From the NCBI RefSeq assembly GCF_024172085.1, contig NZ_JAMZDZ010000001.1:6448001-6512000 (forward strand): 64,000 nucleotides of DNA. The letters run 5' to 3'. This stretch comes from Hamadaea flava (GTDB lineage: Bacteria; Actinomycetota; Actinomycetes; Mycobacteriales; Micromonosporaceae). This document shows positions 52,401-57,014 of this stretch, piece after piece. Every line of letters starts with the position of its first letter. The stretch's first letter is position 1. The notes beneath the pieces were generated by a model that did no database searches, was not told the origin of the DNA, and saw only the letters and a program-made list of their open reading frames with translations. Both the position numbers and the translations under genes were made by a program.

Positions 52401-53111
52401 GTGACCTCTTCGTGGAAATCCCAGTGGCCGGCTCCGGCCGGACTGATCGTGCTCAGCCTCGTTCCGGTGATCGCGGCCTTCGTCCGCGGCGCCGAACTGG
52501 CCTCGCGTCCGGAGGTGACGCCGGACAACGCGCGCTTCGTCACCGCGCCATTGCCGATCGTGCTGCACATCGTCGGCAGCATCCTGTTCTCCGTGCTGGG
52601 AGCGCTGCAGTTCGCGCCGAGCCTGCGCCGCCGCCGCTGGCACCGGTACGCCGGACGCCTGGTCGTGCCGAGCGGCATCGCGGTGGCCGGCTCCGGCCTG
52701 TGGATGACGCTGACGTACGCGATGCCGCCGATCGAGGACTCCGGGCTGAGCGTCATCCGGGTGGTCGTCTCCACCGGGATGCTGCTCTGCCTCGTCCTCG
52801 GCTTCGTGGCCGTCCGGCGGCGCGACTTCACCACGCATCGCGCCTGGATGATGCGCGCGTACGCGCTCGGCCTCGGCGCGGGCACGCAGGCGTTCACCTT
52901 CGGGTTCTGGACGGTGGCCGTCGGTGAGCCCGGCGTCGGAGCGTACGCCCTCTTGATGCTGGCCGCCTGGCTGATCAATCTCGCCGTGGCGGAATGGTTC
53001 ATCGCACGACGGAAGCCCCGCCGTCTGGCGGGGCTTTCCGGGTCGGGTGAGATCACCGGCGACGCAGGTGACGGGCGGCCAGTGCCGAGATCCACAGCAT
53101 CGAGGGGATGA
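52401..53111 (+). CDS. DUF2306 family membrane protein
   Basis: A 236-residue protein with seven hydrophobic segments: ALQFAPSLRRRRWHRYAGRLVVPSGIAVAGSGLWM and RRRDFTTHRAWMMRAYALGLGAGTQAFTF are DUF2306 hallmarks (conserved His pairs, possibly haem or metal ligands). Family proteins end about where WFIARRKPRR appears here. This frame then runs on 28 codons through a terminator hairpin and overlaps the convergent DUF998 gene by 59 bp, suggesting a lost stop codon. Confidence 0.85.
   Translation: MTSSWKSQWPAPAGLIVLSLVPVIAAFVRGAELASRPEVTPDNARFVTAPLPIVLHIVGSILFSVLGALQFAPSLRRRRWHRYAGRLVVPSGIAVAGSGLWMTLTYAMPPIEDSGLSVIRVVVSTGMLLCLVLGFVAVRRRDFTTHRAWMMRAYALGLGAGTQAFTFGFWTVAVGEPGVGAYALLMLAAWLINLAVAEWFIARRKPRRLAGLSGSGEITGDAGDGRPVPRSTASRG
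53011..53039 (+). terminator. Intrinsic terminator lying inside the DUF2306 frame
   Basis: GGAAGCCCCGCC, loop GTCT and GGCGGGGCTTTCC. It falls before the in-frame stop at 53109-53111, so transcripts ending here would lack a stop codon. Confidence 0.7.
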
Positions 53112-53730
53112 CGCCGAGGGCGAGGGTCAGCGAGCCGGCCTTGCCGCCGGTCATCGCCCACAGGTTGCCCACGAGGGTGGCGGTTCCGGTGATCCGGGAG
53201 ACGATCGCCCGGCCGCGGTCGCCGTCCCGGCTGAACTCCCGGCCCAGCACGTAGCAGGCCGCGATCAGGGCGGCGAACGCGATCGTGCCGGACGCGAAGT
53301 GACCGTAGCTGTGCCAGCTCAACGAGGCGGGGATGCCGGCCGGCGTACCGGCGGGGAAGCCGTCCGCCGGGTCCATCACGAAGACTCCGGCGGCCATCAT
53401 CCCGAGGCCGTTGATCCGGACCAGGCGCGGCGCCCACTTGCTGCGGACGACCCGGCGCAGCCCGGCCGCGCCGATGACGGTGAGCAGCCCGGCGACGAGG
53501 AAGTTGGTGATCTGGAGCCAGCCGAGCGAGCCGGTGCTCAGCTGGCTCAGCGGGTGGCGGGTCAGGTCGAAGCCTGCCCGGGTGGCGGCCTGGATCAGGC
53601 TCACCGCCGCCCACAGCGGGGCGCTCACTGCCGCACAGATGAGCAGTACGCGAGTGCCGGCCGACGAGGCGGCGGCCGACGGGGCGACGGTGGCGGCGGT
53701 GGACGAGGCGGTGGTGACGCTGGCGGTCAT
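53053..53730 (-). CDS. DUF998 family membrane protein
   Basis: A 225-residue protein with six hydrophobic segments: TRHPLSQLSTGSLGWLQITNFLVAGLLTVIGAAGLRR, MAAGVFVMDPADGFPAGTP, and LSWHSYGHFASGTIAFAALIAACYVLGREF, as in DUF998. GAAGGAG lies before ATG 53730. Divergent from the YciI-ECF42 pair, which often has a DUF998-like or membrane target nearby; an ECF42 target is a possibility. Confidence 0.88.
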   Translation of the reverse strand: MTASVTTASSTAATVAPSAAASSAGTRVLLICAAVSAPLWAAVSLIQAATRAGFDLTRHPLSQLSTGSLGWLQITNFLVAGLLTVIGAAGLRRVVRSKWAPRLVRINGLGMMAAGVFVMDPADGFPAGTPAGIPASLSWHSYGHFASGTIAFAALIAACYVLGREFSRDGDRGRAIVSRITGTATLVGNLWAMTGGKAGSLTLALGVIPSMLWISALAARHLRRR

Positions 53731-53781
53731 GTCGGGCTCCTTCAGCCGTGAGGACTTGTTTCACTGACACGTCGATCGGAT

Positions 53782-53817
53782 GATGTGACAGAGAACAAGG
53801 CAGTTACCTGTCACATC
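53782..53817. promoter_or_regulatory. Inverted repeat between DUF998 and YciI genes
   Basis: GATGTGACAG (53782-53791) and CTGTCACATC (53808-53817) form a perfect 10-bp dyad with a 16-nt spacer. Each arm is followed outward by a CGACGT-like sequence. It may carry back-to-back -35 elements or a repressor site. Role not determined. Confidence 0.5.
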
Positions 53818-53872
53818 GGCCATCCGACGTCCTGTCAGACACGCCCTTTCACACCGGAATGGAGACCACGTC

Positions 53873-54202
53873 ATGCGGTTCCTGATGACGGCCCTGGCCG
53901 ACGACAACAAGCCCGACGAGAAGCTGTTCACCGAGATGGCGAAGTTCATCGACGAGACGACCGCGGCCGGCATCCTGCTGGCCACCGGCGGCCTCGAAGC
54001 CGGCGGGGTCCGGCTGACCTCGGCCGGCGACGAGATCACGGTCACCGACGGCCCGTTCACGGAGGCGAAGGAGGCGGTCGCCGGCTTCGCGCTGATCGAG
54101 GTGCGCTCGCGCGAGGAGGCGATCGAACTGGGCCGCCGGTTCCGGCAGATCGTCGGCGACGGCGTCAGCGTGATTCAGCAGGTCTACGGGCCGCAGGGCT
54201 GA
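53873..54202 (+). CDS. YciI/DGPF domain protein, ECF42 partner
   Basis: A 109-residue protein: FLMTALADDNKP, AGILLATGGLEAGGVRLTSAGDEITVTDGPFTEAKEAVAGFALIEVRSREEAIELGRRF. TDGPFTEAKE is the DGPF signature. These small ferredoxin-fold proteins are the conserved neighbours and targets of ECF42 sigma factors. The sigma gene begins 10 bp downstream. Confidence 0.93.
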   Translation: MRFLMTALADDNKPDEKLFTEMAKFIDETTAAGILLATGGLEAGGVRLTSAGDEITVTDGPFTEAKEAVAGFALIEVRSREEAIELGRRFRQIVGDGVSVIQQVYGPQG

Positions 54203-54212
54203 TCGCCCACCA

Positions 54213-56126
54213 GTGACCGCCGTACATCGGACGGTCGACGCCGTCTGGAAGCTGGAGTCGGCCCGGATCATCGCCGGGCTGACCCGGCTTGTCCACGACG
54301 TCGGACTCGCCGAGGAGTTCGCCCAGGACGCCCTGGTCGCGGCGTTGGAGCAGTGGCCGTCGGCCGGGGTGCCGGACAATCCGGGGGCCTGGCTGACGAC
54401 GATCGCGAAGCGTCGCGCGATCGACCACATTCGACGGTCGGAGCGGCTCGACCGCAAGCACGAGGAACTGGCCCGGGACCTCGACCAGCAGCCGGATCAG
54501 CAGCCCGACGATGTCCTGCGGCTGATGTTCATCTCCTGCCACCCGGTGCTGCCCACCGCGGCCCGCGTCGCGTTGACGCTGCGGCTGATCGGCGGCCTGA
54601 CGGCGACCGAGATCGCGCGCGCCTTCCTCACCACCGAGGCCCGGATCACCCAGCGCATCGCGGCGGCCAAGCAGACGCTGGCCGACGAGCGCGTCCCGTT
54701 CGAGCTGCCGGCCGGTCCGGAACTGGCCGGGCGGCTGTCCTCGGTCCTCGAGGTCGTCTATCTGATCTTCAACGAGGGCTACGCCGCCAGCGCCGGCGAC
54801 GATCTGATCCGGGCCGACCTGTGTCTGGAAGCCCTCCGGCTCGGGCGGCAGCTGGCCGAGCTGGCCCCGGACGAGCCCGAGGTGCACGGGCTGGTGGCGC
54901 TGATGGAGATCCAGGCGTCCCGCAGCGCCGCCCGGATCGGCCCGAACGGGGAGCCGGTCCAGTTGCACGAGCAGAACCGGGGCCGCTGGGACCAGTTGCT
55001 CATCCGGCGTGGGTTCACCGCGATGCTGCGCGCCCGGGATCTCGGCCGCCCACCCGGTCCCTATGTGCTGCAGGCCGCGATCGCCGTCTGTCACGCGCAG
55101 GCACCGACGGCCGAGGACACCGACTGGCGGCAGATCGCCGCGCTCTACGGGGCGCTGGCCCGGCTGCTGCCGACGCCGATCGTCCAGCTGAACCGGGCCG
55201 TCGCCGTGGGCATGTCCGCCGGGCCGCAGGCGGGGCTGGACCTCGTCGACGCGCTGCTCACCGATCCGGCGTTGCAGAACTATCACCTGCTGCCGGGCGT
55301 ACGCGGAGATCTGCTGGCCCGGCTCGGCCGGCCGGCTGAGGCCCGGCGGGAGTTCGAGCGGGCCGCCGCGTTGACGGCGAACTCCGCCGAGCGGGAGTTC
55401 CTCCGTCGCCGAGCCGAACGCCTCGCCGACGACGCACCGCCGTCTCTGTCGCTCGGCCAAGCGACGGCGGATTTCCTGCGCCGGGAGGATCTCGACGCGC
55501 AGACCCTTCGGGCGTACGCGCAAACGCTGCGACGCCTGTGCCTCGCCGTCGGGGAGAGTCTGCCGCTGGCCGAGCTGACCCCGGATCGGGTGGCGCAGAC
55601 GTTCGAGCTGGCCTGGGCCGGGGCGGCGGCGCGTACCTGGAATCGGCATCGGGCGGCCGTCCGGTCGTTCAGCGCCTGGGCCGACCTCCCCGATCTCGCC
55701 CGTACGCTCGACCGCCGAACCGAGCCGCCGTCGCTGCGGCGTGGGCTCGATCTGGTCGAACTCTGGGCTCGCGAGTTGCCTCTGCGGGAACGCGTGCTGT
55801 GGCGGCTGCTGGCGGAGTCGTCGGCCGGGCCCCGGAGCGTGCTGGCGTTGAACGTCGACGACCTGGATCTCGACGAGCGCCGGGCGTGGACCGGGAAGAC
55901 CTGGATCACCTGGCGGTCGCAGACCGCGTCGCTGCTGCCCGGCCTGATCGCCGGGCGGGAGCGGGGGCCGGTGTTCCTCGCCGATCGGCGGCGCGGGCCG
56001 GGCCGGCCGCCCGCTGCGGCCGACGTCTGCCCGCATACCGGCCGGACGCGGTTGTCCTACGAGCGCGCCGAGTACCTGTTCAAGCAGGCCACCGGGCACA
56101 CGCTGCGGGACCTGCGAGAGTCCTGA
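54213..56126 (+). CDS. ECF42 sigma factor fused to a truncated tyrosine-recombinase-like domain
   Basis: A 637-residue protein. Residues 1-405 are a full ECF42 factor: region 2 (13-82, GLAEEFAQDALVAALEQWP and AWLTTIAKRRAIDHIRR), region 4 (105-160) and the long C-terminal TPR-like extension (EVVYLIFNEGYAAS, LGRPAEARREFERAAALTANSAEREFL). Residues about 412-495 are a SAM-like core-binding domain (LDAQTLRAYAQTLRRLCLAVG, RTWNRHRAAVRSFSAWA). Residues 505-637 follow an integrase catalytic domain (RVLWRLLAES, LNVDDLDLD, GPVFLADRR, CPHTGRTRLSYERAEYLF). Box II reads TLRDLRES: the usual His is Arg632 (Arg635 is kept), and the protein stops there, so the catalytic Tyr is absent. Recombinase activity is unlikely; DNA binding is possible. 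Confidence 0.85.
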   Translation: MTAVHRTVDAVWKLESARIIAGLTRLVHDVGLAEEFAQDALVAALEQWPSAGVPDNPGAWLTTIAKRRAIDHIRRSERLDRKHEELARDLDQQPDQQPDDVLRLMFISCHPVLPTAARVALTLRLIGGLTATEIARAFLTTEARITQRIAAAKQTLADERVPFELPAGPELAGRLSSVLEVVYLIFNEGYAASAGDDLIRADLCLEALRLGRQLAELAPDEPEVHGLVALMEIQASRSAARIGPNGEPVQLHEQNRGRWDQLLIRRGFTAMLRARDLGRPPGPYVLQAAIAVCHAQAPTAEDTDWRQIAALYGALARLLPTPIVQLNRAVAVGMSAGPQAGLDLVDALLTDPALQNYHLLPGVRGDLLARLGRPAEARREFERAAALTANSAEREFLRRRAERLADDAPPSLSLGQATADFLRREDLDAQTLRAYAQTLRRLCLAVGESLPLAELTPDRVAQTFELAWAGAAARTWNRHRAAVRSFSAWADLPDLARTLDRRTEPPSLRRGLDLVELWARELPLRERVLWRLLAESSAGPRSVLALNVDDLDLDERRAWTGKTWITWRSQTASLLPGLIAGRERGPVFLADRRRGPGRPPAAADVCPHTGRTRLSYERAEYLFKQATGHTLRDLRES

Positions 56127-56921
56127 TCAGCGCTCGACGAGGGCGTGGAGCTGGCTGTACAGCTGCCGGTCGGTGACCGAGCTGTGGAGAACGATCTCGC
56201 CTTCGGCCGGGACGATCGCCGCGGCCGGGCAGTCCTTCTCCGCCCCCGTCAGCCGGACGTCGAGAAGCTTCCGTCCCGTCGCCACCTCGTACGCCGTCAC
56301 CTTGTACACGCCTTCCGCGAAGGCCACGGTGGTGGGCTTGGGAGTGGTGAACTTGCACGTGCCGAGGGACTTCCCGGCGGCGGCGAAATCGACGCAGGCG
56401 ACGATCTGCGTCTTCGTGAGATCGGCCGGCTGCCAGGCGGCCCGCAAGGACTTGGCGGTCCCGTCGGGCACCTCGATGGAGCTGGGCTGGTTGCGGGTCT
56501 TGAAGACCTCGTCCAGCACGGTGACCGTGATGGGGTGGGGCGCCGAACCCGTCAGGGCGGGCGATTGCGGGTAGTACCAGCCTCGGCAGACGCCGTCGAG
56601 GTCGGCCGCGGTCGCCACGGGAAAGTCCCGAGCCCAGGCGCTGCCGGGGCTGGCCACCGTGGTCGGCTCGGGGGGTAAGCCGCTACCGGGTGCCGGGTGC
56701 CTGCGCAGCTTCATCAGGCCGAGGCCCCCGCCGACCAAGAGCGCCACACTGGCCACGATCGCCAGAATGGGCAGCCACGCGGCACCCCGTGGCGGAGTCG
56801 AGCCCGGCGGCGCCAGCCAGTCCGCCAGCGGATCGTCCGCCGTGGACAGTGATTCGTCCGCATCGGGCAGTGAACCGTCCATGTTGAACAGTGGCTCGTG
56901 CCCAGAGTTGTTCTGCTCCAC
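56127..56921 (-). CDS. Membrane-anchored protein of unknown function
   Basis: A 264-residue protein from GTG 56921 (GGGGGCG upstream). An acidic N-terminal cytoplasmic part (about 1-45) precedes one membrane helix (AAWLPILAIVASVALLVGGGLGLM) and an outer domain with DLDGVCRGWYYPQSP, QIVACVDFAAAGKSLGTCKFTTPKPTTVAFAEGVYKVTAYEVATGRKLLDVRLTGAEKDCPA: four cysteines, probably two disulfides. Its stop directly abuts the stop of the sigma-recombinase fusion (TGATCA), marking the junction where the recombinase was cut. Confidence 0.75.
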   Translation of the reverse strand: MEQNNSGHEPLFNMDGSLPDADESLSTADDPLADWLAPPGSTPPRGAAWLPILAIVASVALLVGGGLGLMKLRRHPAPGSGLPPEPTTVASPGSAWARDFPVATAADLDGVCRGWYYPQSPALTGSAPHPITVTVLDEVFKTRNQPSSIEVPDGTAKSLRAAWQPADLTKTQIVACVDFAAAGKSLGTCKFTTPKPTTVAFAEGVYKVTAYEVATGRKLLDVRLTGAEKDCPAAAIVPAEGEIVLHSSVTDRQLYSQLHALVER

Positions 56922-57014
56922 CGAACGCCCCCGTCGCGTCGAGTTTCGAGTTCCCGAGTCTACTGGCGAGGGCGTACGCGATGGGGCCGCGTTCAACGGG
57001 ATGAACACGGCCCC

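Follow-up and report, generated by a model that had tools for sequence, protein, structure and literature searches.

Why should an RNA polymerase sigma factor end in the remains of a site-specific recombinase? In a 64,000-nucleotide stretch of the Hamadaea flava genome (hereafter the window, in whose positions all coordinates are given), the open reading frame at 54213–56126 had been predicted from the letters alone to join a full-length ECF42 sigma factor (ECF, extracytoplasmic function) in frame to a dead tyrosine-recombinase-like domain, and the extra domain was suggested to tether the sigma factor to specific DNA. Our comparison of related loci indicates that the captured recombinase is dead, that it probably kept its DNA specificity and binds its half-site in the target promoters, and that, in the larger of two clades of fused genes, it has probably taken over recognition of the –35 element. 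With moderate confidence, we favor a more specific form of this proposal, in which –35 recognition was handed from sigma region 4 (sigma4) to the captured domain, so that one half-site serves as part of a promoter and an inverted pair of them as a bidirectional promoter.

The gene is a single uninterrupted frame from GTG at 54213 to TGA at 56124–56126 (637 amino acids), free of any stop or frameshift near residue 405. Its parts are as follows (E, expect value; TPR, tetratricopeptide repeat):

54213..56126, + strand: fused gene, ECF42 sigma factor (residues 1–405) and predicted dead tyrosine-recombinase-like domain (residues ~410–637)
54273..54446, + strand: sigma region 2 (residues 21–78; Pfam PF04542, E 3.6e-10)
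54525..54680, + strand: sigma region 4 (residues 105–156; Pfam PF08281, E 5.2e-6)
54642..54665, + strand: part of the presumed sigma4 recognition helix (residues 144–151; Ala here, against Arg151 of unfused ECF42 proteins)
54732..55034, + strand: DUF6596, start of the ECF42 C-terminal extension (residues 174–274; Pfam PF20239, E 6.7e-36)
55440..56123, + strand: predicted dead recombinase domain, comprising the core-binding domain and the N-terminal part of the catalytic domain and ending after box II
55491..55682, + strand: Phage_int_SAM_1 match (residues 427–490; Pfam PF02899, E 5.2e-7)
56049..56093, + strand: RLSYERAEYLFKQAT helix (residues 613–627), the proposed major-groove helix

A TIGR02937 score of 48.8 bits (cut-off 42.9) places the N-terminal part among the sigma70-ECF proteins, and its best-segment identity to unfused loci is 56–69% over about residues 1–400; the name ECF42 is that of the original prediction and is presumptive. 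We likewise take residues 144–151 to be the sigma4 recognition helix by analogy with sigma4 structure, and the major-groove role of residues 613–627 is assumed by analogy to Cre-type recombinases. The R, L, S, Y, R and A of the RLSYERAEYLFKQAT helix are invariant across 43 alignment rows (38 fused, 5 standalone). No Pfam match to the Phage_integrase catalytic domain was found in the 637-residue protein; the best sequence-profile match of the C-terminal domain was XerD (E 9e-5). An AlphaFold model of residues 405–637 built from 43 relatives (mean predicted local distance difference test score, pLDDT, 91.6; predicted template modeling score, pTM, 0.58) has a tyrosine-recombinase fold: all 14 PDB matches with E up to 0.001 were tyrosine recombinases, at moderate template modeling (TM) scores of 0.38–0.61 by query. 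Brujita Int came first (E 2.9e-6, TM 0.41 by query), followed by Tn1549 Int on DNA and XerA and, lower down, by lambda Int (TM about 0.6) and Cre. The whole-protein model had low pLDDT across sigma4 and a pTM of 0.46, and is no guide to the packing of the parts.

The fusion is conserved among various actinobacteria. It was found in frame in 12 of the 20 loci examined first and in 105 of 132 classified overall; these loci were the top-ranking matches of each search, so the fractions are not population frequencies. Fused loci occur in four group-coded families (f1, f13, f31 and f33) and in named organisms that include Sphaerisporangium, Kitasatospora indigofera, Nonomuraea dietziae, N. typhae, Streptosporangium, Streptomyces anulatus, Herbidospora yilanensis and Microtetraspora niveoalba. 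The C-terminal domain was matched in 19/101 genomes (the window's own and 100 relatives), in 51/394 genomes of an even sample of the class, and in 179/297, 74/300 and 134/297 genomes of three family samples, counts that include standalone recombinases and weak partial matches. The sigma match starts at residue 28 or later in seven of the 105 fused loci (L016, L046, L162, L201, L203, L204 and L208), in some perhaps owing to a cut or broken stretch. The extra domain is under purifying selection: its ratio of nonsynonymous to synonymous substitution rates (dN/dS, Nei-Gojobori) was 0.24–0.46 in 16 chosen pairs, with 0.09–0.42 for the sigma part of the same pairs. A dead active site and a stop that abuts the next gene might be taken for a pseudogene remnant or an assembly artefact. 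The dN/dS values reject the pseudogene reading and, with 105 in-frame fusions and a ratio below 0.5 in 16/16 pairs, we give both explanations a practically negligible probability. Matches to the recombinase domain also lie on the Streptomyces plasmids NZ_CP109414.1, NZ_CP109269.1, NZ_CP109402.1 and NZ_CP108089.1, in genes annotated as RNA polymerase sigma factor; the fusion may be plasmid-borne. One locus, L340 (genome G531), is a split version, with a sigma match (residues 4–379) and a recombinase-like part in different open frames.

Catalytic residues were compared between 105 fused and 55 standalone rows, the latter including the split copy L340. The catalytic Tyr is present in 0/105 fused versus 50/55 standalone rows, the box III His in 5/105 versus 50/55, the box II His in 13/105 versus 51/55, and the box I Arg in 4/105 versus 51/55; the box II Arg is kept in 55/105 fused rows (Lys in 36) versus 55/55. 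At the Lys-beta column, Lys occurs in 1/105 fused rows (Arg in 5, a gap in 98) versus 49/55. In the window protein, the residues named in the original prediction were confirmed (Arg632 at the box II His position, Arg635 kept, the stop two residues later, and hence no Tyr); this protein has likewise lost the box I Arg and the Lys-beta strand. To judge from these residues, the fused domain is catalytically dead. The same truncation recurs across genera: 100/105 fused copies stop no more than 62 residues past the RLSY motif, mostly directly after box II. This bears on the TGATCA at which the stop meets that of the next, opposite gene, which had been proposed as a rearrangement point; the overlap of stops is real, but a stop so widely shared does not mark a rearrangement. 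That opposite gene (56127–57008, – strand) has no Pfam match at E 0.01.

The whole domain is kept in 5/105 fused copies (L033–L036 and L046), with the catalytic Tyr changed to Phe (4) or Leu (1). In a quick domain tree without bootstrap, fused copies group together (SH-aLRT, the Shimodaira-Hasegawa-like approximate likelihood ratio test, 88) with L340 inside, and the full-length and truncated fused copies form sister clades. The domain tree (L157, L030) and the sigma tree (L258, L264) differ in where they place truncated copies that have canonical promoters, so that there may have been one truncation event or more than one. A similarly early end, shortly past box II, was seen in short standalone recombinase-like genes at L019, L020 and L023 (genus g56 of the same order); the alignment shows no Lys-beta strand for L019 and L020, and L023 shares genome G072 with the fused copy L008.

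What might a dead recombinase still recognize? We read the DNA before the YCII-domain gene in 69 fused loci, and the window shows the arrangement that recurs there:

53873..54202, + strand: YCII-domain gene (Pfam PF03795), first of the presumed operon
53053..53730, – strand: DUF998 protein (Pfam PF06197), the divergent gene across the palindrome
53804..53816, + strand: right operator arm TTACCTGTCACAT, occupying the –35 position in the promoter of the YCII-sigma operon
53783..53795, – strand: left operator arm (ATGTGACAGAGAA on the + strand), inverted relative to the right arm
53796..53803, no strand: 8-bp spacer between the arms
53825..53829, + strand: CGACG, 8 bp past the right arm and proposed as the –10 core for the YCII-sigma operon
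53770..53774, – strand: CGACG, separated from the left arm by 8 bp and proposed as the –10 core for the divergent DUF998 gene

The YCII gene lies directly upstream of the fused gene in 68/69 loci, and the divergent gene encodes DUF998 in 53/69. The consensus 13-bp arm of this recombinase-type site is TTMCCTGTCACAT; with both divergent –10 elements, the window site spans 53770–53829. A palindrome with both arms matching at least 10/13 positions occurs in 43/69 fused loci, with a spacer of 8 (31 loci), 9 (10), 10 (1) or 22 bp (1). Among the 65 loci with a right arm, 50 have CGACG within 14 bp, always at a distance of 8 or 9 bp. A strict arm lies upstream of 63/69 fused operons (within 250 bp), versus 0/59 unfused ECF42 operons (within 220 bp), and is absent from all 72 whole unfused ECF42 loci, which were drawn from many phyla and not from actinobacteria alone; 0.005 of 69 is expected in resampled sequence. 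On these counts (0/59 promoters, 0/72 loci), unfused ECF42 genes were ruled out as carriers of the site. Five of the six fused loci without a strict arm have a degenerate form by eye, and L230 has none.

Unfused operons show a different promoter: TGTCG[A/G] and CG[A/T]CG lie 14–19 bp apart in 46/59, usually as TGTCGA-N17. The window promoter has the ECF42 –10 element and lacks the TGTCGA –35 element, as do 50/69 fused loci, all with the operator at –35. The sigma factor itself differs in step. Residue 151 is Arg in 72/72 unfused ECF42 proteins (residue 150 is Val in 92%), and Gln147, Val150 and Arg151 are kept in 12/12 fused loci with a canonical –35. By contrast, in the 50 loci with an arm at the –35 position, Ala150 is found in 49 and Arg151 in only 2 (association of promoter class with Arg151, Fisher 4e-11 in counts). 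There, residue 151 is A, G, D, E, Q, T, S or V, as expected if its constraint had been released. In L056, L073, L259 and L265, mainly the DUF998-facing arm is kept, with Lys (3) or Arg (1) at residue 151; another promoter may serve the YCII-sigma side of these loci.

Since the element overlaps the –35 position in 50/69 loci, and the right half-site stands alone in some, it could instead be a new –35 sequence read by the sigma4 of this clade, the recombinase remnant serving some different purpose, for example in protein contact or stability. We consider this unlikely. Position 151 turns variable in place of settling on a single new residue; the arms also lie upstream of the canonical promoter in all 12 canonical loci (two direct copies in 10, one in 2); and the same arms are found next to intact recombinases lacking any sigma domain.

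These intact relatives may also show where the site came from. Active recombinases bind inverted half-sites around a 6–8 bp spacer, and 13-bp arms are the geometry of lox-type sites. Two intact standalone recombinases, L339 and L342, carry identical arms (ATGTGACAGGGAA-N7-TTCCCTGTCACAT), and L321 carries a CGCAT form. A related inverted repeat occurs at 33/54 standalone loci with a spacer of 5 (1), 6 (18) or 7 bp (14), and these repeats would presumably be true recombination sites. On the most parsimonious reading, the captured domain retained its DNA specificity and its half-site was gained by promoters. The tether suggested in the original prediction gains support here, at the level of sequence, in that the half-site of intact relatives also stands in the promoter of the fused operon. 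One standalone subfamily (L040, L017, L038, L039, L042 and relatives) has an extra single arm about 78 bp downstream of the inverted repeat, shortly before the gene and at nearly constant spacing.

Across whole genomes, the site and the domain occur together. In 61 fused genomes, CCTGTCRCAT-N4-10-CGACG was found at 80 places, in 43 of the genomes, and the reversed pattern at 4. The CACAT form, CCTGTCACAT-N4-10-CGACG, accounts for 74 places, and is found at none in 60 genomes without a domain match; all 11 pattern matches in those genomes are of the form CCTGTCGCAT-N4-10-CGACG, which has 6 places in the fused genomes. A stricter palindrome was found in 9/394 sampled genomes (reversed pattern, 0), and all 9 were among the 51 domain-matching genomes (Fisher 5e-9), the draws for palindrome and for domain being apparently the same set. 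Four of the nine lie at fused loci (spacers 8, 9, 8 and 8); of the other five, four have a standalone-type match within about 1 kb (spacers 7, 7, 6 and 7), and that of G408 (spacer 7) has a weak partial domain match about 4.8 kb away. One further site, G000:C1:4331201, was rejected as an operator since it sits in a tandem repeat.

Palindromic operators are commonly used by dimeric regulators, and a separate transcription factor might occupy this one while the fused domain makes no DNA contact. This is very unlikely, given that the palindrome is seen only where the domain is encoded (9/9 sampled genomes), including G431 and G352, for which only standalone-type matches are listed, although no systematic search for another shared regulator gene was made. 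Rather unlikely, too, is that the domain acts as an autorepressor, keeping the sigma factor bound to the operator of its own operon and limiting transcription instead of helping promoter recognition. Such a role would fit the 64 of 74 CACAT-type places that lie within the stretch fetched around the fused gene, and the dead recombinase MrpR is described as a repressor in parts of PMC10516654. Against it stand the fixed gap of 8 or 9 bp between right arm and CGACG wherever the latter lies within 14 bp (50/50; 15 more have none), and the loss of Arg151 in 48/50 operator-type loci, as expected of promoter recognition.

Several observations weigh against the proposal that the captured domain reads its half-site in these promoters. 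In the window alone, two arms with no more than 2 mismatches are within chance (0.78 expected; 17/100 shuffles reach 2), and the case for the site therefore rests on conservation. No CGACG lies within 14 bp in 15 of the 65 right-arm loci, 12 of which are canonical-promoter loci, and 7/69 fused promoters fall in neither class. The sigma tree shows a single change of promoter class, which gives one independent pair, so that the link between sigma4 and promoter amounts to one natural experiment rather than fifty. The extra domain evolves faster (dN/dS) than the sigma part in 13/16 pairs. No inverted repeat of the kind described is seen at 21/54 standalone loci. Of the nearest standalone kin on the tree (L341, L343 and L344), a strict arm is seen at L344 alone, and its partner there is imperfect; L341 and L343 show no site in the DNA fetched, and L341 lacks the box I Arg and Lys-beta.

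If the captured-recombinase proposal holds, an ECF42 sigma factor would have acquired a tyrosine recombinase that lost catalysis and retained its DNA-binding specificity, and the domain would bind the 13-bp half-site in target promoters. In one fused clade, where the half-site lies upstream of an ordinary ECF42 promoter, the domain would act as a tether, which may be the older state. In the larger clade, that of the window, the half-site sits at the –35 position, 8–9 bp before the CGACG –10, and the domain would replace sigma4 there. Counted from the –10, the arm would cover roughly –34 to –22, and the recombinase domain might clasp the promoter at this arm while sigma region 2 reads the –10. 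Head-to-head arms 21–22 bp apart (about two helical turns) would create a two-way promoter for the YCII-sigma operon, which the sigma factor would autoregulate, and for DUF998. The TPR-like part presumably still receives the signal.

The ECF42 factors RpoE10 (Sinorhizobium meliloti), Sven_0747 (Streptomyces venezuelae) and ECF-10 (Pseudomonas putida) resemble the fused protein in sigma region 2, sigma4, the DUF6596/TPR-like extension, the upstream YCII gene and the CGACG –10; the fused protein differs in its recombinase-derived domain, and the window's clade also in having lost sigma4 Arg151 and in carrying a recombinase half-site in place of TGTCGA. Sections of PMC8999054, PMC8103513 and PMC6180224 describe the TPR extensions, upstream partner gene and –35/–10 motifs of ECF42 factors, and parts of PMC8999054 report control of their activity through the TPR extension. 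C-terminal fusions alter sigma activity in other ECF factors as well, such as the Cys-rich extension of ECF238; the known extensions covered in parts of PMC8999054 are ligand, metal, protein-contact or anti-sigma fusions, and none there is a sequence-specific DNA-binding domain. A tyrosine-recombinase fold without recombination is also found in MrpR (YopR; the prophage SP-beta repressor), treated as a DNA-binding regulator in parts of PMC10516654, and in SroF (phi3T), whose DNA-bound structure is among the structural matches of our domain (9rd5, E 3.4e-3). The likeness is one of fold and of the loss of recombination. MrpR and SroF are stand-alone phage repressors, whereas the truncated domain described here forms part of a sigma factor, and its presumed site is an element of the promoter. 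With recombinases of the Xer, lambda-Int and Cre type and their core sites, the fused system shares the core-binding domain, the start of the catalytic fold and 13-bp inverted arms, but its spacer is mostly 8–9 instead of 6–7 bp and its site lies between two –10-like elements. The word "integrase" is absent from the main texts of the ECF reviews PMC8999054 and PMC8103513, as is "sigma factor" from that of the tyrosine recombinase survey PMC8138268. In the literature searched, which covered a minority of subscription papers, neither a fusion of a recombinase with a sigma factor nor a promoter of this type was found described.

These comparisons indicate that a sigma factor has gained a third module for reading DNA, one of foreign origin and marked by the loss of sigma4's conserved Arg. 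Promoter choice in the sigma70 family is thought to be made mainly through the factor's own sigma region 2 and sigma4, and promoters of the kind proposed here would follow an orthogonal logic and could be missed by scans for sigma motifs alone. The findings also suggest how an enzyme of a mobile element could, jointly with its site, turn into a promoter system, with likely intermediates still alive: an intact recombinase, a full-length fusion with Tyr changed to Phe, and a truncated fusion.

Ten CACAT-type places lie outside the stretch around a fused gene, and some sites would act in trans. In G668, no YCII gene stands beside the fused gene; the palindrome is found on a different contig, flanked by YCII and DUF998, and the 6.5 kb fetched there hold no sigma match, a case that counts in favor of the captured-recombinase proposal. 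G654 has a second pair of YCII and DUF998 genes that retains the palindrome, and remnants of a sigma gene lie next to it. Promoters with a half-site were also seen ahead of a DUF1801-like gene (L312, L315) and of a dihydrofolate-reductase-like gene (L313), the names of both being presumptive; such genes are predicted targets in some genomes, besides the YCII-sigma operon and DUF998. Around 3013–5273 of L315, the palindrome is followed by the DUF1801-like gene and then by a weak match to YCII and a match to another ECF42-like sigma factor that is not fused (43% identity), an arrangement that hints at cross-control between two sigma factors.
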